From Sanghuangporus weigelae (lineage: Eukaryota; Basidiomycota; Agaricomycetes; Hymenochaetales; Hymenochaetaceae), in contig CP137324.1 of the NCBI GenBank assembly GCA_033182465.1, positions 1,116,001 through 1,180,000 of the forward strand: a stretch of 64,000 nt of DNA, given 5' to 3'. Below the pieces are notes generated by a model. It had not been told where the DNA came from. It saw nothing but the letters and a program-made list of their open reading frames with translations, and did no database searches. Both the position numbers and the translations under genes were made by a program. Shown here piece after piece: positions 29,652 to 54,483 of the stretch (the first letter of the stretch is position 1; the number at the start of each line of letters is the position of its first letter).

Positions 29652-31201
29652 CTACCGCTCCCCGACTTTCTTGACACCAATGACGACTTTCTCGTTCCTC
29701 CTCCAGAACTCGACGATGATCTCAGCAAGGCGCGCAGGGTTGTCCTATGAAAACGAAAAGGGGGGCACAAGATATCAGACGGGTCAAGACAAGCGAGAAA
29801 AAGCATTAACGAAGATTGAAAGAAAGAAAACTGTTTGATATTCACCTCGTGAATCATATGCCCCGTGTCTGGCACGACCTGGAGCTGGAACTTGCCCTGC
29901 ATCTGGCCGATCATGAGTTCCTTGTCGAGTCTTTCCGTCCCGGCGAGGACGAGCAAACGCGCAGATCGTACACTCAGGAAAGACGATGAGAGTCCTCGGA
30001 ACCAACCTACGGATGAAAAACGTTTCAGTCCTTGCGCTAGAGGTGTCAGTTATGCTTCAGTGTGGGCACTCACTCTCCCAGTATGGTGCCGTCGAGCGGA
30101 GTGGTGTCCTCCAGATATATTTTGGATTCGTGTTGGAAGTGGAGGGGACGACGAGGGAGGGTACGCTTATCCGTGCGGAGAGCGGGTTTCGGATCGTATG
30201 GTTCGCGACACTATCCAAACGAACAACCATTCATCGAATGTAAACAGATGAATAAGAATACGCACTGCCATTCGATAGCCTCTTCCAGCGTCTGAAACCC
30301 CTCCGGTCGGCTATCGAGTAGAGTGTGCATATGCGGAAGCGCATCGATCGTGAATCCTTCTACGATGTCGAGGACCGCGATGCCCGTGAGGCGGTACTTC
30401 GCGTCCAGAAGGCGCGATGAGGCGCGGACTAGGACGGACCCGCCTAGGCTGTGTCCTACGAGCTTTGCGAGTGTGTAAGCTTTCGGATTAATAACAAGAG
30501 AGGGGAGGAATACGTACGACGAACGTCGGTGCATTTGCGGGATCGGGGAATACAGTTACAAGGAGGTTGTATGCGTCTGAGACGAGCGTGTCGATGGCCA
30601 GATCCGAGTCGTCTTTCGTGTCGTCCAACGGTTTCGTCTTTCCTACAATCACACCCAAAATGAATCGCAGCAATAAAATGAGCGGGCGAACACATGCGCA
30701 CCATGCCTCCTCGCGTCCAGCGCAAGTACGCCACACTCCCCCCTCGTCCGGTCCTTCACCTCCTTCGCGAAGAGCGCGAAGCTAAGAGACGAATGCCCCG
30801 CGCCGTGGTGGCATACGAGCACTGTTCCCTTCTTCTGCGGCGCTCCTGGGGCGAGTGCGGGAGGGGTGTAGTAGACGCGGAAGGCGAGGCCCGATGCGGG
30901 GACGGCGACTTCTGCTGCTTGGGCGAAGTAGCCCTCTGCGGAGAGGGGTGCGTATTGCGGGTTTGGCAAGCTCCTCTGTTTCGAATGTGGTCTTCTACAG
31001 AGTTGTATGAGAGTACTGGTGAGCATTGGATGGAAAAGGTTGAACTCACGGGGGTGGTGGGCCCATTGAAGGTAAAGCACCCAACGAGTCGTTTTCCTCT
31101 TCTTCTTCTTCGTTATCCTTGTCGTCGTCCTGAGCGTAAGGAGATATTGTAGGCATGTGAGGCAGCCTGTTTAGCATTGCTGAGCGGCGCAGATCGGACA
31201 T
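29652..31201 (-). CDS. PPE1: Protein phosphatase methylesterase 1 (PP2A demethylase)
   Basis: An alpha/beta hydrolase that removes the methyl ester from the C-terminal Leu of the PP2A catalytic subunit. The N-terminus ([17 protein letters not shown]) is followed by an acidic Glu/Asp run. The hydrolase core reads [20 protein letters not shown] (oxyanion loop), [26 protein letters not shown] (nucleophile Ser in GHSLGG), [20 protein letters not shown] (the family-specific strand with the general acid region), [40 protein letters not shown] and [18 protein letters not shown] (catalytic His). It ends [15 protein letters not shown] at 29652. The LDIVEG and GFQTLEEAI stretches distinguish PME-1 from other hydrolases. 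Six or so introns are present. Confidence 0.94.
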
Positions 31202-31278
31202 GGTCGCGGTGATCAAGTAACGCGACGCGAGTCGCGATTGTCGTCACAATTAGATAACTTCAATTATAATTGTCTGAG

Positions 31279-31732
31279 GCCCTGATCGGTAAAAAAAATA
31301 ACGGGTGGATAAGGGCGGATAACTGGATAACGAGTTAACGACGTGGGATCCGGCATTTTCCCTCTTTATTTGTTCCTATTTGTTCAGATAGTGTAATCAT
31401 CACTTCCGTAATGTTCCGGTACCAAAATGGCAGGGATCTGCCTCAATCATACATTTGCAATAAATCATCCAGTTGGGATATGTAGACTTTGACTTGCATG
31501 CTGACAGAGTAAAGCTTCTTTTTATTATTACCAAGTAATTCTAAGTCACCATCAGCTGTTGGGACATGTAACTTCTAAATGTGGCAAGTGTGTCGATCGC
31601 GTTTGTAATCCAGTGATCAGCAGATGCCGAGTGCTGCCGACTAAATTACCTCACAACAGGTAGCCTCCGAGTCGCACGATCTTAATCTTCGGATAAGCTA
31701 TCCGCCGTTATTTTTTTTACCGATCAGGCCCT
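31279..31732. mobile_element. MITE-like element with terminal inverted repeats
   Basis: The left end (31279-31304) contains CCTGATCGGTAAAAAAAATA followed by ACGG, and the right end (31706-31732) is its inverse complement, so about 24 bases match exactly. The reverse-complemented right end starts CAGGGCCTGATCGG, which resembles hAT-type ends, but I cannot define a clear 8-bp target duplication (CTGA occurs on both sides). The 400-nt interior has GGATAAC/GGATAAG repeats near the left end and no reading frame. It fills most of the 650-nt divergent space between PP2A methylesterase and the glycine-zipper gene. Confidence 0.7.
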
Positions 31733-31818
31733 GAATGTATCCGGGTCCGTGTCTCAGACTGCGACGGAGAGGGGCGCTCCACCGACACGACATGACCTCA
31801 TCCGCCCTCTCTCCCGCC

Positions 31819-31825
31819 TATATAA
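31819..31825 (+). promoter_or_regulatory. TATA box of the glycine-zipper gene
   Basis: TATATAA stands about 31 nt before the ATG at 31856. It implies a very short 5' leader if used. This is positional evidence only. Confidence 0.4.
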
Positions 31826-31855
31826 CCTCGCTATGTCTACGCTAACTAGTACATT

Positions 31856-34800
31856 ATGGCTTCAATAACACCAACAGCGCACGCCACGCCAAACGTACAC
31901 TCTCAAGTCAGACGTGCATCGTCGCACCCGTCTCTTCCAATAACGACGACCACGAACGGCAGCAAGTTCAAGTTGACCTCCCCGCCTCACTCCCGCTCTT
32001 CCACCTCGGAGCTCGGAAATATCCCGGGCACTTATCCGCGCGACCCGCGCATTGCGCTTGAGCATCTGAACGACAAAACCGAGAGGACCGGTATGGAGTC
32101 TACTGCTGCGAACAACGGGACCATACTCGATGCTGCCCGGGAAGACTGGCGCTATGCAGTCGACGTAGCGTCTCAGTACCTGCCTGGCACCGTCGTCGGT
32201 GCTGCATTCGGCTACGCCTTCCGTACGTAATGTTCTCTCTGAATCGGGGGTTGTTCTAATTGGGGGTTGTGTATTTATAATAGCATTCGGGACCACGAAT
32301 CCCGAAGAGGCCGAGACCGAGAAGAAGCTTCAGGCCGGCGGAGTTGGTCAGCAAGCTCCATTCGCCGTCGGGGGTATCGTATCTGATTTTGGTATGTATT
32401 TAAATTTAACGCTCAATTTTGCCGTTGCTTATTTTTAATCGCCAGACCCTCGCGCGCCACACTCCGAGTCCAGTTCGAACAAGCACGCCCCCGCATCAAA
32501 GGTAAAGAAAGACGACGATGTGCAAGAGGTTTCTCCCAGACAGCCTCAATCTCAGTCTTCCGACTTGAGAAAGAAGGCTATTGAAACTGCTGCGCTCGGC
32601 GCGGGCGTAGGCACTCTCGGTGGTGCGGCGTACGAGTCCTCACGTTCGTCGGCTCAGCCGTCTAGCAAGGTCAACCCAACTTCCAAGGACTTTTCACCTG
32701 CTTCGTCCGAAAGCGCTACTCTTCCGGAGCAGAGTGCGAAGGAGCATCCTGCGTTCGCAACGTACGCACCTGCACCTGTTATAACGGACACCTCCTCCGA
32801 GGATACCGCAAAGTCAACTGCTAGCGCGAGTAGCGGCCCATCTGCATCGTCAACTTCAACTTCAATCTGGGACGAACGAGGAAGGAGCGATACTCAGAAG
32901 GCTTTGCATCCTCATCGGGCTAGCGGGACTGACAAGAATGGTGCGGATAGGAAGAAAGCGATCCAGGCAGCTGCGCTCGGAGCTGGGATCGGCACGGTCG
33001 GAGGCGCGACATACGCGCATTCGCATTCGCATTCGCCGAAGGATGCTGCCGACCAAGTCTCGCCCACCGGCACTGCTCAGCCGCAAGTTTCAGGCGGCAA
33101 GTCGGAAGAATTTCCTGTCAAGGATTCTGAGAAATCGCGCGGAGGCGATGCGGTTGCCGCTACTTCAGACGGCAAACTTTCAGAGGACCAGCCAGCTTTT
33201 GTCTCATACGCACCCGCACCCGTCATCACCGAGGATTACACCCCCGATGTCCCCGAAGACGACGACGAGGAAGTCCCACCTACGTCGTCAGTTCGTGACG
33301 AAAAGGCCACTCCTAGCAACGCTCAGAAATCAGTAGAGAAGGATGACCCGGACTTGCCCAGCGACTCGAGAGCAAAGAAAGGTGTTGAAGGTGCAGCGTT
33401 AGGAGCGGGCGCCGGAGCTCTGGGTGGTGCTGCGTATCAGCATTCGCGGAAGAATGACAAACCAAAGGGTATGTAGAGCTTTCGTGTTCACGTTCAGTCA
33501 TTAATTCCAGTGGATATCTCTAGGGGACGTCGCTGTTGCGCCTGCGGGTTACGCAGAGACGAAAGATGAGACGAAACCGACAGCGAAGGAGGTTTCTGTC
33601 GAACCGGAAACGCGTTCTCATAAGACTCGAGATACGCAAAAGTCCGCAGACCAGGATGTTTCGAGGAGTGACGACGCAAAGGAGAAGAAACGCGCTGAAG
33701 GTGCCGCCGTCGGAGCGGGAGCCGGTCTGCTGGGCGGTGCAGCGTACGCGCACTCGCGTAGATCCGATCAAGACCCATCCGTCGATTCCTCTACTTCAAT
33801 TTCTTCTCCAACGGCGCATTTCAAGGAAAGGCCTTCATCTCCCACTGCGGCTACGGATTCTCAGGCTCAACCGGCATCCAAGTCTGCTGTACCAAGCACG
33901 GACACGTCTGGGTCCAAAGATACTCAAAAGGCCCCCAGCCAATCCGACTCCGCAGTTAAGAAAGGAGCTGAAGGCGCCGCTGTTGGCACGGGAGCTGCTC
34001 AGGCTTCTTCCAAGACGTCTGGATCCGAGCCGTCTCAAAGGCAGATTAACCCTGAAGCTGAGGGAAAAGACTCGACCGCCCCTCAAGATTCGAAGTCTAA
34101 GAAAGGGTTCTGGGTCGCTGCACTTGGAGCAAGCGCAGGCGTTTTGGGCAGCGCTGCATTGCATTATTCGCGTAAGAATGGAGAGGATGATTCTGGCAGC
34201 AGGGCGACAGAGGGTTCGCCGGTTTCTCAGTCCAAGGCGAGCACCGACCAGTCGCCTGGTGCGGGTGGGGACAAAGACACGAAGTCAGCTGACAAGAAAG
34301 GCATCGCTGCTGCTGCAGCCACGGGTGCCGGGGTAGGCGCTATCGGTACTGGGCTCGCCTCTGACAAGAAATCCGAGACAGATCGGATCGCGGAGAATAG
34401 AAAGAAAGAGGCCGAGAAGCGCGAGAAGGACAGCGTCGCCGCTTCTTCCTCTGACAAGAGAGGTGCGACGAGGAAGGAAGATAAGCGTGACGCGAAGGAG
34501 GCGGAGAAGCAGCATCAGGCTGCGAAGCGGGAGAAGGAGGTGAAGAAGCACGAAAGGGATGTTACAGCTTCTAGTGGCAACAAACATGCGAAGCGTGCGG
34601 AGGGAACGACGGAAGTGACGCAGCCGCAGCAGGACGAGATCGTGCGCGAGGATGCGAAGAGCAAGGATCAGAGTAAGGGATCAGCAGCCGGCGCCGCGGG
34701 AGGTGCTGCTCTCGGAGCTGGAACAGGACTCGCCGCAAATTCGCTCAGAGAGACTAAGAAACACCAGCCGTCGGACGAACTCACCTCCACCGCATCTCAT

Positions 34801-35352
34801 CAAGCCGGCACCGACTCAGACAAATTCTCACGACACCAGGCTCATCCATCCATCAAAGCCGCTTCGAACCCACCACACCGCCCAGGTCCGATCGCACACG
34901 GCGCAGCCGGACCCTTCGACGTCCCCAAGTCGGGCGCAGACAGCGACTTCCCGCTCCCCTCTGCCGACGCGAGCTCGACGGACGTCGCCCCCAAGGCCGT
35001 GGATATCGACGGATCTGGCAAGCCTTCCGCGACTGACGAGAACAAGTCCGATTGGAAGGCTCATTCAAAATCTGAGAGGAAGACAGCAAACACTGCTGCT
35101 GGGGTCGTCACAGCCGGAAGTGCCGCCGGCCAACCTGGCGGCAAGTCGCGTTATCACGGTTCGGAAGGTATCCAGGAGAAGCATGAAGGCGGCGTGTTGA
35201 GGTCCAGTACGATTGAACGGATGAGGAATGCGAGCGGAGACGGTAGTAATGGAAGTGGGAATGGAAACGGAAATGGACATGGGAAGAAGGAAGGATTCGT
35301 CAAACATATCGTCGAGAAGGTGAAGGACAAGTTGCACCATCATGACAAGTAA
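31856..35352 (+). CDS. Low-complexity protein with eight glycine-zipper repeats
   Basis: I do not recognise the family. From ATG at 31856 a Ser/Thr-rich N-terminus leads to YLPGTVVGAAFGYAF, then after an intron PFGTTNPEEAETEKKLQAGG. Introns also fall at about 32390-32445 and 33473-33522. A Lys-Lys-led hydrophobic unit then recurs: KKAIETAALGAGVGTLGGAA near 32570, KKAIQAAALGAGIGTVGGAT near 32955, KKGVEGAALGAGAGALGGAA near 33375, KKRAEGAAVGAGAGLLGGAA near 33687, a shortened one near 33957, KKGFWVAALGASAGVLGSAA near 34099, a divergent one near 34297 and GAAGGAALGAGTGLAANS near 34690. Most are followed by Tyr and His/Ser/Arg residues (AYxHSR). The GxxxG spacing would form glycine zippers able to insert into or bind membranes. 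Linkers are acidic, Ser/Lys/Asp-rich and disordered, and two share PAFxxYAPAPVIT. The Lys/Glu/Arg-rich C-terminus ends KEGFVKHIVEKVKDKLHHHD. Confidence 0.8.
32560..34755 (+). repeat. Eight dispersed glycine-zipper coding repeats
   Basis: Units of about 27 codons at roughly 32566-32650, 32955-33040, 33371-33450, 33680-33760, 33954-34012 (short), 34096-34180, 34290-34370 and 34675-34750. Consensus KK(A/G)xEGAALGAGxGxLGGAAY. Identity is highest among units 1-4, and units 5, 7 and 8 have drifted. Spacing is irregular (200-400 nt), so they have spread apart by linker growth and are not a simple satellite. Confidence 0.8.
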
Positions 35353-35578
35353 TTTCTCTCGAGGTGAAAAGGTGCTCTTCCCGAAAAGTAGCTTAGTGTT
35401 TGTTTCACAGCGATTCTGTAATTGTATCTCGTTTTATTTTATTCAGTAATTAAATGCTTATCTACAACAGTTAAAATGATATATAATTTGCTAGGCGTAT
35501 TTAACAAGAGTTGTGTGCAAACAAGAGATTTTAGAGATGATACACTATATCCGAGCTAGATTAGAAAACTTAAATACT

Positions 35579-36162
35579 CTACGCCTGATCAGAAGTATTC
35601 GTCTTGACCCTCCTCACGAGGTTCCTTCCCCTCCTCCTCGGCTTAGGCCGGGGCTTCTTCCCCTCCGCCTGCAGAGCCTGCGACTCTTCCTTGAGCACAC
35701 CATCCTCACCTACATCCGCATCCATCGCGTTCACATCCGCACCCCCATTCCCAGAAATAAGACTGAACAACCTCCGCTCCTCAGCCCTCTGGCTCGGATC
35801 CTCGTACGTCACGCGCATGCTCTCCTCGGCTGCCGCGTCACTCGCGTTGCGGTTGAACAGCTCCGTGGGCGACTCGGCGAAGTGGCCGGAGCTCAGCGTG
35901 AAGTCGAATGGATAGGCGGACCCGGACCCACCACCGGTGCCTGAAAGCATCGACGACGTCCGCCCGAGGACCTCCAAGCTCGTCGTGCGGGAGAACGAGC
36001 GCGCGGAACAGGCGCCGGACCCGCCGTCCGCAGCACCCTGCCGCGATTTCGTACGCGGAGGTGGTTTCGAGCGTTTTGACGCTCGCGTAGTCAGAACCGG
36101 CTGCTGCTGCTGTTGCTGCTGTTGCGTTGCAGGCGCCTTATCTTGGCTGTCACCCTCCGCGT

Positions 36163-36193
<31 letters not shown>

Positions 36194-39085
36194 ATTGTCG
36201 TCTGAGGAGGGTCGTTTTCCCAAGAGCGAGGCGATGGCGTCTTTGAGAACGCTGGCGCTCTCGCCGCTGAGCGTGCTCGTGCTTGCGGTAGCTGGAACTG
36301 ACGATGGCGAGATAGTCCGTGCCGCTGTTGCTGCTGATACTTCCTGTTGTTCCTTCAGAGTATTTTTGGATGGCATTCGCATCGGTGACGGCGTTGCGCT
36401 TGACGGTACGCGCTCCATTACCATGCTCTTTGATTTACTCGGTGAGGTGAAGGGAGAAACCGAGGGTCGCGTCGATAGCATGCTTTCTCCCAAAGTAGTA
36501 TGTCTGCGGACCGGGGAGGGGGTCGTCGGAACTGTGTCGGGAGGAGACGAAGTTGGTGGATTCGCCGGAGCAGGTTCCGAAAGAAGCGCGCTAGCTGTCC
36601 AATCGTCCGAAGAGACTTGTCGGGCAACATCAAGAGATGACGAATTCGAAGATTGCGATTTGTTTGAGCTTTTCGCAAAGCCTTTGCTCTTCGAGGAACC
36701 CTGGACAAACTCGCTGTTCGTTATGTCCGCCATCATCCCACCCTCGGGAGAGCTCTTTGCAGGAGCAGCAGAAGAACCATCAGCTGTAACTAGATAGTTG
36801 TCGACGTCATGTATTTTGCCGGACTTCACGGTGTCAAATAGCCATTGCAGGCTCAGAACAGGAATTCCCCATTCTAGCGCTTTCATAAACTTCGGACCAG
36901 AGCCGCAAGGACAAATGAGGTGCGTATTTCGCCGTGAGAGTTGGTCAGTAACAGTTGCACCTGTTCAATTTGAGACATTTATAAACGGGAAGAGTTATAG
37001 ATGATATCAACACGAACCGATTGCTTTGAGAAGCCGGACAGAAGGCATCTTCTCTGATGGTATTAAACCAGATATGTGAACCATAAGTTTATCGGCACCT
37101 TCAAAGACGATCAGCTGAATTCTATACCCCGACATTGCAACGCACCTGGAAGTGGCGTAGGAATCCGGAGAGGAACGAACGCAGGGTGTTCGTCCCCAGC
37201 ACATATTCTTTCCTCAAACATGCACTGTTCGATCCAGCATTCTGTTCGAAATTTCTGGCGCTCTGTTTGACTCGGCTCATTACGGTAGAATATGCTTCCG
37301 CTATGTATTCTGTCAGACAGTCCGAGCGAGAATGATGCTGTGGAAGACCTACCTCACGAGGCGAACAACTATGAAATCAACCTCAGTATCGGCATCGACA
37401 ATCACAGTACCGCCCCGAAGCTCAAGTGCTTCCGTCAGTTTCGTTCCACTTGCCTCTCCTAAAGCTCGAAATCTGAGTCCAGCAAATAGAATCCGTTCCC
37501 CTTCTGGGATCTGGTTACGGTCCTGCAGAGCAAGTGAGCCTGAAATTGTTGCAGGAACCTGCCGGTTTTCCGTAGCCGCCGCAGGAGTCGACAGCACGCG
37601 CTGAAATGCAGATTTTGTGGCGTCAGGTTCTGCTGTCTTCGCCGCGAATGACTTGGTTCGTTTAAAAGCCGCGTTCAGAGAGCTCTTCGTCCTCGACGAG
37701 GTTGCAAGTTCATCATGATTGTGGGATGAGGGAGAAAGCGGTATCTGAGAGCCCTCTCTTGAGAGAAAACTTGATTTACTGGGACTCCGTAACAACTTTC
37801 CATCTTTCATTTCAAAACCCCTCTTCTTTAGCGCACTTTCCCAGAGAAGAGCGGCCGCTTCAGGCATGCGTTTGACGTTGGCAGTCTCTTCCGCATCCGC
37901 GTTGGCATCGAATTGAGAAGAGGGGGTTGGAGCACGTTGTTTACTTTGTTCGGCTGTTGAGGTTATCGGTAAGACAAGCGGAGAAGCTACCCGAAGAAAT
38001 ATGGTCAAGATCGTAAACAGGCGAAGGAAGATGAGAACTTACGTTCCCGTCTTATTCTGCGCGGAGGACGAGGTCCAGTTGCTAGATAACTCCTTTCATC
38101 AAGGATACCTATAGACAAGTGAGTTTAGGAAGATTCTTTGGTGGCAGCACGAACCTTTGAACTCTAAGCAATCCCAAAACCAGTCTTCCCAAACAAGATG
38201 CACCTTTTTAGCTCGAGTATCGTTGTATTTCATAGCATATTGCATTTTTGGCGTGAGACCCATCTGGTCCGTATTTTCTCCTCTATCCGGACCGCATAGA
38301 AGATGTGTCAGCTCCATGCCTTTGCTGAACGTCTCAATAAATGCGCCTCCATTCTTTTCGAGCTGCTTCTGGATTTGTTTTCTCCTTTCGATATCGTTGA
38401 TTGCTGTCATGCATAAGTTCACGGACTTAAAGGTCGGAAATCGATGCATAACTGCAATCTTTCCATGAGTAGGTCATGAGCAAATAACGAACAGGAAACT
38501 TAATTTTTAACCGCATACCTTCTCTACATCAATACTTTCTCCGTTGATCCATTTTTCGTAAATGTCAGATATCCAGGATGGTTGTAATATCGGAATCCCG
38601 TGCTCCACGCAGTACTGGCGAAAAGTGAGTTCTGTGAGACAAGCATGAGGTGGTTACAGACGCACGTTATATTTCGGAGTGCCAGGGCTTTCGCAGACGA
38701 GATGCGTGACGCGATCCGTTAGGTTTGACGATGTCTGAGCTCCCAGCTGTACTGCTTGTTGATACAAATTGACCTGCAAACCGACCAAGTAGTTAGCCAC
38801 GTTACATATATTCTACGTGGCCATTACCTTGTCGCTAAGGCCAGATCCACAGATGACCACTCCGACGAGTGGTTTCTTACAGCTTCGCAGAATCTCCGTC
38901 GAGTCAACATCGTCTTGAATTGACGAATGTAGTCGGGTTAACTGCGTGGATGGCTCGCCCGACTTGCTTGACTTGGTTGGCGCGGCTGGGCGTAGTTTCA
39001 CGCCTGGCACCTTTTAAGATATGAGCTGCATTCAACAAGAAATGATATGGCCGCATACTTTGGTTGACCCGTGTCCTTTCCGCAT
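35579..39085 (-). CDS. TopBP1/Dpb11/Cut5-type BRCT protein
   Basis: A scaffold for replication initiation and checkpoint signalling that binds phosphorylated partners. The start is ATG at 39085: MRKGHGSTK, then an intron, then VPGVKLRPAAPTKSSK. Four BRCT domains can be read: first KPLVGVVICGSGLSDK with THLVCESPGTPKYN and GIPILQPSWISDIYEKW; second FKSVNLCMTAINDIERRKQI with THLLCGPDRG and KVHLVWEDWFWDCLEFKG; third ILFAGLRFRALGEASGTKL with RGGTVIVDADTEVDFIVV; fourth LIVFEGADKLMVHISGLIP with THLICPCGSGPKFMKALEWG and SLQWLFDTVKSG. Two pairs of BRCTs match Dpb11 of yeast and Rad4/Cut5 of fission yeast. The C-terminal part from about 36800 is disordered, with a poly-Gln run, an Asn/Ser repeat and a basic end (KPRPKPRRRGRNLVRRVK). 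About ten introns. Confidence 0.92.
36102..36197. repeat. Two microsatellites coding poly-Gln and Asn-Ser repeats
   Basis: CTG/TTG triplets at 36102-36126 encode eight Gln on the minus strand, and GTTGCT hexamers around 36162-36193 encode an (SN)n run. Both lie in the disordered tail of the BRCT protein and are likely to vary between strains. Confidence 0.8.
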
Positions 39086-39348
39086 GGTCTACGCTTGTGT
39101 CGTAATGAACGGAAAGCGCTCTTGACTTGAAGCCAAACCATCTCGCGAAGACGCGCTTGGCACCGCAATTCAGGGCCGGTCATTACGCTCCTCATTTTCA
39201 CGTGCACCTTTCGTGGCTACGCGTGACGGCTTCGCGAGTCGTCTCGTCTGTTACTGATCTCTTCCGCATCTAAGATATCCTCGGCTCGGTCAATTAAACT
39301 CACTTAGTAAAAGTCAAAATCAGTAGATTGTATTTTGTATTCCTACTG

Positions 39349-52002: not shown

Positions 52003-53963
52003 TTAGAAAAGCGGACTCCAATTTGCTCGCTCAAACTCCTTTTCCTTCTCCCCACTCTCAGCTTCCGACTTCCCAGAAAACCTCTCCGTTAAGACAGTCA
52101 ATTTAGAGCGATAGTCGTCCATCCCAATGTACGCTCCGCACATTCGGCGCCTGCCATCGAAAGCCGAGCGACCGTGTAAGACGCGGTGGTTATCAATAAC
52201 TAATGAAAAGTGAGAAGGATCAATTTAATACTACTGAAACCGGGGAAAGTACGAAGTGGAAGAAGCTGTACGTACTGACTGCTGTTCCCGGACTGAGCTG
52301 GACCCAATACTCAGAATCTGCGCTCTTAATTGTCTTGTTCCATAATCGCAAAGCCTCATACCTGCGCAAAACTCTCAAGTCCACGGCAAAAGAGAAGAAA
52401 AGAGAAGAAACCCATACCACTTCTCCAACTCCTCCGAAGTAACACCTTTCATCGCACTCCTATCATCGTTATTGTACCGTACCTGATAAAGCTTTCCACT
52501 CGGATCCAAATTCAATATTGGGTACCCTTCAGGAGGATTAGGCCTGTAAAGATCGCCTGGTTCGCCAGCGGCGTGGGTTGGAACGCGTACGGAAGTAAGT
52601 GTGTGGTATGCTTCGGGGTGTAGCTCTTTGAGGATGGAGGCAACGTAGAAGCCGTCAACGAGAAGAGTCTCGCCGCCGTGTCCGTCGGTGTGGGAGAGTA
52701 GATGGAAGAGTTGCAGACCACATGGATCAGTCTGTGAAGGAAAGTTAAAGTTTACGACATAAATGAGAAGACGTGAGTGCTCACGAAGTAGGTCGTATCT
52801 GTATGTGCACCCAAAGCGAGAGTCGTGTATGCGGTATCGCCTTTCGCAAGATCGGAAGTAAAATCCCAGAAGGTGCCGTCTAAGAAAGGACATCAGAACG
52901 AGCAAGATATCCAGAATGAATAGAGGGCCGTACATTGTGTTGGTCGGATGTTCGCTATTCTAACAGCAAGCTTCTCCGTCGCCTCAGGCGTCGCTTCAAC
53001 ACCCTGGATAAAGCAAAACCCAAATGTTTCCTATCCCATTTAAAGTGCCCAGCTCAGCGCCTTTCTTCTCTTACCAACGATATCACAACGTCAACGCACA
53101 ATCTTCCTGAGTAACTTCCACAGTCCTCGGTCTTCGTTCATGACATAGTCATTTGCAACGGATGGTGGATCTTGCACAATCTTTGCTCCCCAAAGCACCT
53201 TCCTAATAGGCGTAAGTTCAGATCCAACTACAGCATCCATAATCACTTACTCAAACGGCTGGATAGGCGGCTCCTCTGCAGGCAATAGTGCGACAGGCTC
53301 AGGAGAGTGCCATTTCAGCCAGTTCCATGGGTAAATGGATACATGTGGTTTTAACGAAGCCGGCCCTGTGTGCTATCAGCCCCGAGTGAACAAATAAGTT
53401 CAAAACTCATCCTTACAAGTTACTTTCAAGCCTTCTTCAGTCGCCTCAACATTCGTAGGCTGCACTTCTGGAGGAATCTGCACAAACAAGGCGTTCGTCA
53501 GTTCTGATACAACTAGATAAGTCAAATAGAAAAGAGAACAGACGTCAAACGTATCCACAAGCCGTTGCTTCGTAATTTGGTGGAAGCATTCCGGACATCG
53601 ACAATGATCTCTCAGCCAAAGGTTGAGGCTACATTCAATCACATCCGAGACCCAGACATTAGCCTTTCTGACTAAATGGTCTATCATGAAAGACTGAAGA
53701 ACGCACTATCTTGACCAAGTTAACGGATCCCACCCGACGTGCACCTTCTTCTCATCCATCTTCACAAGCGGTAGCTGCTTGTCCGAAGAGCTCGCCGATT
53801 CCGGGGTGACATTCGTCTTAGCCTTTGGTGCATCGGATTGCCAGTGTGCGGTCGAAGCGGATGATGCTGGATCTAACGTCGGGTTTCGCGACGTCGCCGT
53901 CGATAAGTATCGCAAATTCCGCATACATTTTGACCCTGGATTTGCCAGTATGTACGACCGCAT
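52003..53963 (-). CDS. Trimethyllysine dioxygenase (carnitine biosynthesis)
   Basis: An Fe(II)/2-oxoglutarate dioxygenase that hydroxylates N6-trimethyllysine, the first step to carnitine, in mitochondria. ATG 53963 gives MRSYILANPGSKCMRNLRYL with STATSRNPT, a plausible presequence. An N-terminal zinc-binding domain follows (NLWLRDHCRCPECFHQITKQ, then RLVDTFDIPPEVQPTNVEAT). The catalytic domain reads VEATPEATEKLAVRIANIRP, TQYGTFWDFTSDLAKGDTAY, LGAHTDTTYF with the metal-binding HxD, DPCGLQLFHLLSHTDGHGGE, TLLVDGFYVASILKELHPEA and, at the end, IDNHRVLHGRSAFDGRRRM with the distal His and Arg. The stop is TAA at 52003. Homology to gamma-butyrobetaine dioxygenase is close; the RDHCRCPECF opening and the QTNxVD-like body favour TMLH. 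About nine introns, and exon joins near 53000-53350 were not all resolved. Confidence 0.88.
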
Positions 53964-54483
53964 TAACGCGGGAGCTGCCTTGCTCTATAGAAACCAAGAC
54001 GTTCAGTAAACACAGGAGAAAGAGTGGTCGTGAGCAATCGGAAGAGTCTATGCACCTTCGACCCCGAGGTTCTGTTGTTAACTCGAACAGTATTCCTACA
54101 TAACGAATATCTCACTCCTTGTCGAGCAGCCAGCATCATCCCAGCGACGACGCTGCAAGATGATAAGAGGTGGGAGGAGGAACACCGAGACACGGAACAA
54201 AACTCGAAGCTCAGGTATATCGGGCACTGGCAGCGTCGATCTCATCTCATCATTACCGGCTGCGAAACTAGTGCTGCGATCTACCCCGCGCCAATCACTT
54301 TCATCCAATTTTCTCCGTGCAAAACAGATTTATTCTATATACAATGTATATATGCAAGAAAGATATAAAGCAAGTAACCAATCTATACGCCTAGAGAATG
54401 AGAGAAATATTTTTGTGTTGTTGAGACAATAATCCTCCTGAAACAATCGGAACGTCTCTTTTCGAGTGAAAAAAAAGAAGCAT
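53964..54483. other. Intergenic, no gene seen
   Basis: About 520 nt between the dioxygenase start and the ILV5 stop, both on the minus strand. It includes the promoter of the former and the 3' UTR of the latter. Open stretches on both strands here lack any recognisable content. Confidence 0.4.

Follow-up and report, generated by a model that had tools for sequence, protein, structure and literature searches.

The DNA analyzed here is a 64,000-nt window from the basidiomycete Sanghuangporus weigelae (contig CP137324.1, positions 1,116,001 to 1,180,000, forward strand), which is part of contig C7 of a 33.87-Mb genome in 13 contigs. On its plus strand lies a gene encoding a 1108-amino acid (aa) protein in which glycine-zipper units of ~25 residues recur along a hydrophilic chain (Table 1). 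The coordinates given in a prior interpretation made from the letters alone (the sequence-only reading) match the start and stop of the gene exactly, but the gene is split by three introns. The four exons join as one frame without a stop, and the three introns are all GT-AG introns of phase 1. These introns were picked by eye from the sequence, as were those of the relative on contig C9 described below, and the gene models are predictions. The protein is composed of 14.5% alanine, 13.2% serine, 9.7% glycine, 8.8% lysine, 4.3% arginine and 3.2% histidine and has no cysteine; proline, glutamate, leucine and serine together make up 28.5%. On average the chain is hydrophilic (mean hydropathy −0.92), and its 150 acidic and 145 basic residues leave a net charge of −5.

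To score the units, we slid a profile made from units 1–4 along the protein and took as the control the highest score (33.8) among 100 shuffles of the whole protein; units 1–4 score high by construction, as the profile was made from them. The eight units counted by the sequence-only reading divide into five clear ones (1–4 and 6), two marginal ones just above the shuffle maximum (7 and 5), and unit 8, which in this comparison is indistinguishable from glycine/alanine-rich sequence. The glycine-zipper pattern itself is well above chance: GxxxGxxx[GST] occurs 16 times, compared with a shuffle mean of 3.0 and a maximum of 11, and none of 2000 shuffles reached 16. Eleven of the 16 begin within a unit and seven units carry at least one, unit 5 having none; of the remaining five, residue 1031 and the N-terminal segment account for one each and the asparagine/glycine tail for three. 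Lysine pairs head seven of the eight units, and units 1–4 have a single tyrosine after the zipper. The second motif reported for two linkers, PAFxxYAPAPVIT, was recovered in self-comparison as the only above-threshold pair that lies entirely outside the units, while (D/N)(T/A)QK was found ahead of units 2, 3, 4 and 5.

Table 1 Features of the glycine-zipper gene, in window positions and protein residues
Feature	Position	Strand	Residues	Remarks
Whole gene	31856..35352	+		exons 31856-32222, 32284-32391, 32446-33468, 33524-35352; 1108 aa
Conserved N-terminal segment	32129..32222	+	from 92	includes YAVDVASQYLPGTVVGAAFGYAF; followed by a phase-1 intron, as in the C9 relative
Glycine-zipper unit 1	32571..32645	+	201-225	profile score 94.5; GxxxGxxxG
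PAFxxYAPAPVIT copy 1	32748..32786	+	260-272	self-comparison score 62 vs maximum 44 of 30 shuffles
Glycine-zipper unit 2	32952..33026	+	328-352	profile score 94.0; most conserved unit, 1/46 sites changed
PAFxxYAPAPVIT copy 2	33192..33230	+	408-420	same self-comparison pair, score 62
Glycine-zipper unit 3	33375..33449	+	469-493	profile score 100; OsmB-zipper match over 12 residues
Glycine-zipper unit 4	33685..33759	+	554-578	profile score 95.5
Degenerate unit 5	33958..34032	+	645-669	profile score 35.2; without GxxxGxxx[GST]; 10/50 sites changed
Glycine-zipper unit 6	34099..34173	+	692-716	profile score 58.2; most hydrophobic unit, insertion +1.7 kcal/mol
Weak unit 7	34294..34368	+	757-781	profile score 37.2; GxxxGxxxT
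Lys/Glu-rich predicted helix	34375..34575	+	784-850	AlphaFold2 helices 784-807 and 810-850; block pLDDT 60-90
Weak unit 8	34675..34749	+	884-908	profile score 31.5, under the shuffle maximum; three overlapping GxxxGxxx[GST]
Conserved C-terminal basic helix	35281..35349	+	1086-1108	GKKEGFVKHIVEKVKDKLHHHDK; predicted helix 1087-1103

The first four units had been described as nearly identical, which overstates their likeness. In the six pairs among them, amino-acid identity is 60–80% and DNA identity 60–75%, and a tandem-repeat finder gave no entry within the gene. Their pairwise agreement is 32–52% at third codon positions and 72–88% at second positions; the synonymous divergence (dS) is 0.9–2.4 in five pairs and undefined in one, and the nonsynonymous divergence (dN) is 0.16–0.32. 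Recent duplicates would match at silent sites as well; therefore, the repeats are old and maintained, their likeness being kept by selection rather than by recency. Growth by internal duplication, which had been proposed for this gene, is supported for units 1–4 and 6 and for the PAFxxYAPAPVIT motif, but as old rather than recent events. In a genome-wide search with one unit as the query, the unit was found only in the window gene and in two broken copies of it, with the limit that the query was short and the best candidates were scored. The query matched five units of the window gene and the same number in either broken copy; these five are therefore older than the segmental duplication that produced the copies. 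A C5 match (E = 0.6) was dropped, the matched stretch having no unit. Searching the genome with PF13441 gave three places below the cut-off, one of which is unit 3; the best of them is a 130-aa frame at C9:2215819 with a signal-peptide-like start, as judged by eye.

Conservation was measured by comparing the window gene with the minus-strand broken copy (C7:2612672-2616323), with the linkers defined as all residues outside the units, 86–160 and 1060–1108. At codon positions 1 and 2, 38 of 394 sites changed in the eight units versus 220 of 1538 in the linkers (p = 0.016). The five clear units, a grouping made after scoring, account for 20 of 246 (p = 0.009 versus linkers), while the three weak units alone show no difference from linkers in this comparison (18 of 148, p = 0.54). 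At third positions, the five clear units and the linkers change to a similar extent. When placed among 464 linker windows, units 2, 3 and 7 fall within the most conserved tenth. Coding gaps against the same copy are multiples of three in 29 of 36 cases and frame-shifting in seven (p = 8e-9 versus one third).

The ends of the protein, which the sequence-only reading overlooked, rank among its most conserved parts. Only 3 of 66 first- and second-position sites changed in the YLP segment (residues 92–125) and 1 of 46 in the C-terminal helix. Both ends are retained in a zipper-less relative at C9:31649-33154 (L023:3650-5155), a four-exon gene for 445 aa that was first seen as a weak match (E = 0.003). 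Against this relative, the N-terminal 150 residues score 84 (shuffle maximum 66) and the C-terminal 50 residues score 111 (maximum 49), with none of 500 shuffles as high in either case. In both genes a phase-1 intron directly follows the YLPxxVVGA segment, and KKEGxVKxxVxKVKDKL is found C-terminally. No zipper unit was detected in the C9 relative, where the best profile score is 13. Judged from the sequences, the family is defined by both ends and not by the zippers, and either one member acquired the zipper string or the other lost it. Searching the genome with the C-terminal end returned only the window gene, one broken copy and the C9 gene, for a short query of which the best candidates were scored. 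The N-terminal query from C9 returned only C9 itself and missed the window gene too, so that distant members may escape short queries.

We ran AlphaFold2 without an alignment on exon 3 and exon 4 separately (340 and 608 residues). The predicted local distance difference test (pLDDT) value is below 50 for 225 of the 340 and 480 of the 608 residues, and the protein is predicted to be mostly disordered. The two helices of the Lys/Glu-rich region, at residues 284–307 and 310–350 of the exon 4 model (+500 for the protein), are conserved no more than the linkers (22 of 136 sites changed in residues 783–850). The C-terminal helix has a block pLDDT of 86 in the middle and 55–63 in the flanking blocks.

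The statement that no named family has this layout agrees with our searches, in which no cut-off was reached in Pfam, NCBIfam or PDB sequences; in the latter, no solved structure matched up to E = 1. The closest Pfam models of the zipper type are PF13441 Gly-zipper_YMGG (21.8 bits at best, with unit 3 by itself as the query, and 6.5 with the whole protein; gathering score 28.9) and PF13488 Gly-zipper_Omp (best 16.2 bits; gathering score 25). The top-scoring NCBIfam match is the osmotically inducible lipoprotein OsmB (NF007830), at 24.5 bits with a best stretch of 15 residues, far under the curated cut-off of 98 bits. Other matches below the cut-offs, to DUF2530 (E = 0.014, over unit 1), EbpS, RnfC and further unrelated models, were rejected. 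No relative of exon 3 was found in IMG/VR or GTDB genomes, as expected of a fungal protein, and nothing on this protein was found in open-licence papers. Unit 3 has 11 of the 12 residues of the E. coli OsmB core AxGAGAGALGGA, both have the small-xxx-small pattern, and the insertion energies are similar. However, the likeness is barely above composition (score 56, where the best of 500 shuffles reached 52), and OsmB is a 72-aa protein whereas the window protein is a disordered chain of 1108 aa with several units. The likeness between OsmB and unit 3 is likely to be convergence. As a long fungal linker with repeats joining functional ends, the window protein also resembles leashin (LAH), the Woronin-body tether of ascomycetes, described in the relevant part of its report as an acidic, PELS-rich chain with the repeats LPVDEDLDLLPALPES and PEEVELPASP (PMC2690989). 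We rejected this candidate: neither repeat occurs in the protein, where the closest stretches agree at 5 of 16 and 4 of 10 residues, respectively, and the proline, glutamate, leucine and serine content and the balanced charge given above do not fit.

The two broken copies reside in a rearranged segmental duplicate of window positions 31731-39204 and 52190-54213, at C7:2.604-2.616 Mb (L021/L022) with 75–89% DNA identity. This duplicate, which also takes in the neighbouring BRCT-domain gene, is ~30–43 kb away from the end of C7. In both copies, the position of the start codon reads ACG. A 4.4-kb inverted repeat that is 99.8% identical (L021:2367-6758 and L022:3687-8078) contains a broken copy, the plus-strand one being cut short, together with Tim54-like sequence, and reflects a very recent event. 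The right end of C7 (L049) and the left end of C9 (L050) carry a telomere-like repeat of 12 bases that is mostly alternating, TTAGGGTTAGGC, in place of plain TTAGGG; the zipper-less relative is ~31.5 kb from this repeat, that is, near a chromosome end. In the window, the gene is flanked upstream by a divergent gene at 30211-31210 (minus strand), which we take to resemble a protein phosphatase methylesterase, although Pfam gave no match to two pieces of it. The convergent gene downstream at 35582-36964 (minus strand), which probably reaches ~38470 judging from its frames, has the BRCT domains PF12738 and PF00533 and is presumably a Dpb11/Rad4/TopBP1 relative. Other genes of the window carry Svf1 and SART-1 domains, which together with the spliceosomal introns identify the DNA as fungal.

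From the units, the ends and the relative, we tentatively propose that the protein is a long, mostly disordered cytosolic scaffold that is multivalent and self-associating via its zippers and uses its ends as anchors, a possibility that we favor while holding it to be somewhat short of probable. The two conserved ends would be functional anchors common to the family, and the zipper units would be short helix-forming stickers that contact each other within and between molecules, such that about five strong contacts per chain could lead to oligomers or clusters. The ends, namely the helix-like YLPxxVVGA stretch and the basic terminal helix, would probably attach to a partner or to the surface of a membrane, and the assembly would form at that site. 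The repeat units, the conserved ends, the relative and the signs of selection are seen in the sequences, with the gene structure judged by eye; that the units form helices and associate with each other, where the protein resides and whether it touches membranes we infer. The proposal is suggested by the zipper pattern above chance, by the retention of units 1–4 at the protein level despite silent divergence, by the lower change of the units than of the linkers at positions 1 and 2, by the disorder-like composition and low pLDDT, by the ends held in common with the zipper-less relative, and by the unfavorable membrane insertion of seven of the eight units described below. There is also a precedent for a soluble glycine-zipper oligomer in the YG box of SMN, where, as described in the part of that study on the motif, a GxxxGxxxG helix dimerises and oligomerises in a non-membrane protein (PMC8287954). 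The motif is common to both proteins, but in SMN it forms a single domain in which tyrosines are interleaved (YxxxYxxxY), whereas the window protein has several units. In the passages of a Caulobacter report on CdzC and CdzD, extended GxxxGxxxG segments are thought to promote self-assembly, and the aggregation of CdzC is attributed largely to the hydrophobic zipper region (PMC5380434). These, however, are secreted bacterial proteins made mostly of glycine and small hydrophobic residues, while the zippers of the window protein are islands in a hydrophilic chain.

Several observations weigh against the scaffold. No zipper unit received a confident helix from AlphaFold2 run without an alignment, and the sole helix in exon 3, over the start of unit 1 (residues 198–210), is of low confidence; as predictions, these models neither support nor exclude zipper helices. 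According to the relevant portion of a survey, GxxxG motifs occur in both soluble and membrane proteins and in them often lie in loops or coils rather than helices, which counts against presuming helices in the units (PMC12470825). Units 1, 4, 6 and 8 lie outside the most conserved tenth of the linker windows, and 86% of these windows change more slowly than unit 5. For the basic C-terminal helix, amphipathicity is not significant, since 27% of shuffles reach its moment.

The sequence-only reading proposed instead a membrane tether, in which zipper helices in or on the membrane along one chain would cluster or bridge membranes; we consider this unlikely. Glycine zippers are described as frequent in membrane proteins, and that of Tde1 as acting at membranes, in the pertinent part of one report (PMC10240207), and the lysine pairs heading most units would suit such a role. 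We computed insertion energies with a position-dependent scale on which, in line with expectation, the zero point of alanine/leucine controls falls between three and four leucines. Values for the eight units span +1.7 to +6.7 kcal/mol; unit 6, near the border, is the only one under +2.8, and the N-terminal stretch at +2.8 is among the most insertion-like segments. Thus, seven of the eight units are clearly unfavorable. Their Kyte-Doolittle hydropathy is 0.9–1.0 in units 1–4 and about 1.5 in units 6 and 7, and the hydrophobic moments of all eight, 0.03–0.16, indicate that the units are not amphipathic helices. In favor of the tether, the N-terminal stretch at residues 92–110 has a high moment of 0.46, reached by 2.6% of shuffles. 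Against it, the 14 windows of highest hydropathy all fall outside the first 100 residues. On the same scale, the zipper of E. coli OsmB, an annotated lipoprotein, scores as poorly (+3.8 kcal/mol), and the insertion score therefore cannot decide the matter; it only lowers the membrane reading and leaves it weakly supported. The likeness of unit 3 to OsmB would speak for a membrane role, but its score scarcely exceeds composition, as noted above.

Three further explanations were weighed against the same data. The protein could be of the stress type, hydrophilin-like or late embryogenesis abundant (LEA)-like, protecting membranes or proteins in drying or osmotic stress with zippers that fold on drying, which we judge rather improbable. 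Hydrophilins have more than 6% glycine and a hydrophilicity above 1; the glycine content here exceeds the former, but the mean hydropathy appears to fall short of the latter. The osmotically inducible lipoprotein as the best NCBIfam match would fit, yet it is far under its cut-off, and in Pfam neither the C-terminal helix nor the protein as a whole matched a dehydrin. The disordered, glycine-rich and strongly hydrophilic character does agree with the traits given for yeast hydrophilins in the relevant part of one paper, but small size, also listed there, does not agree with 1108 aa (PMC6054528). That the protein is a septal-pore plug, which would gel at the hyphal pore upon wounding as the ascomycete SPP/SPA proteins do, is in our estimate highly improbable. 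Long disordered regions are reported for 13 of 23 SPP septal-pore proteins, but these are described, in the same part of that report, as arginine/histidine-biased and lysine/glycine-avoiding (PMC10023807). The composition here points away from this bias, with more lysine than arginine, little histidine and abundant glycine, as raw percentages and not as that paper's measure. It is also very unlikely that the protein is simply a fast-evolving low-complexity chain whose glycine/alanine-rich stretches have no specific function: the linkers and unit 5 do change fast, three units are weak and the relative has none, but residue identity is kept while third positions have diverged in all six pairs of units 1–4, and most coding gaps preserve the frame.

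Returning to the disordered cytosolic scaffold, a two-ended fungal adaptor combined with an OsmB-like soluble zipper string might amount to a tunable sticker-and-spacer scaffold in which the stickers are glycine-zipper helices and not aromatic or charged motifs, an idea that we put forward with considerable doubt. Compared with Pfam, NCBIfam, PDB sequences, the contigs of this genome, IMG/VR and GTDB genomes, the protein looks like an uncharacterised form of the known glycine-zipper motif, of uncertain novelty; what is new here is the definition of the family by the protein ends and the zipper-less relative on another chromosome. Glycine zippers have been studied mainly as membrane-helix contacts, with one or two per protein. 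If the scaffold proposal is true, a soluble disordered chain with at least five selected zippers would be a natural test of zipper helices as multivalent stickers, and the zipper-less relative with both ends would be a ready control that separates the roles of the ends and the zippers.

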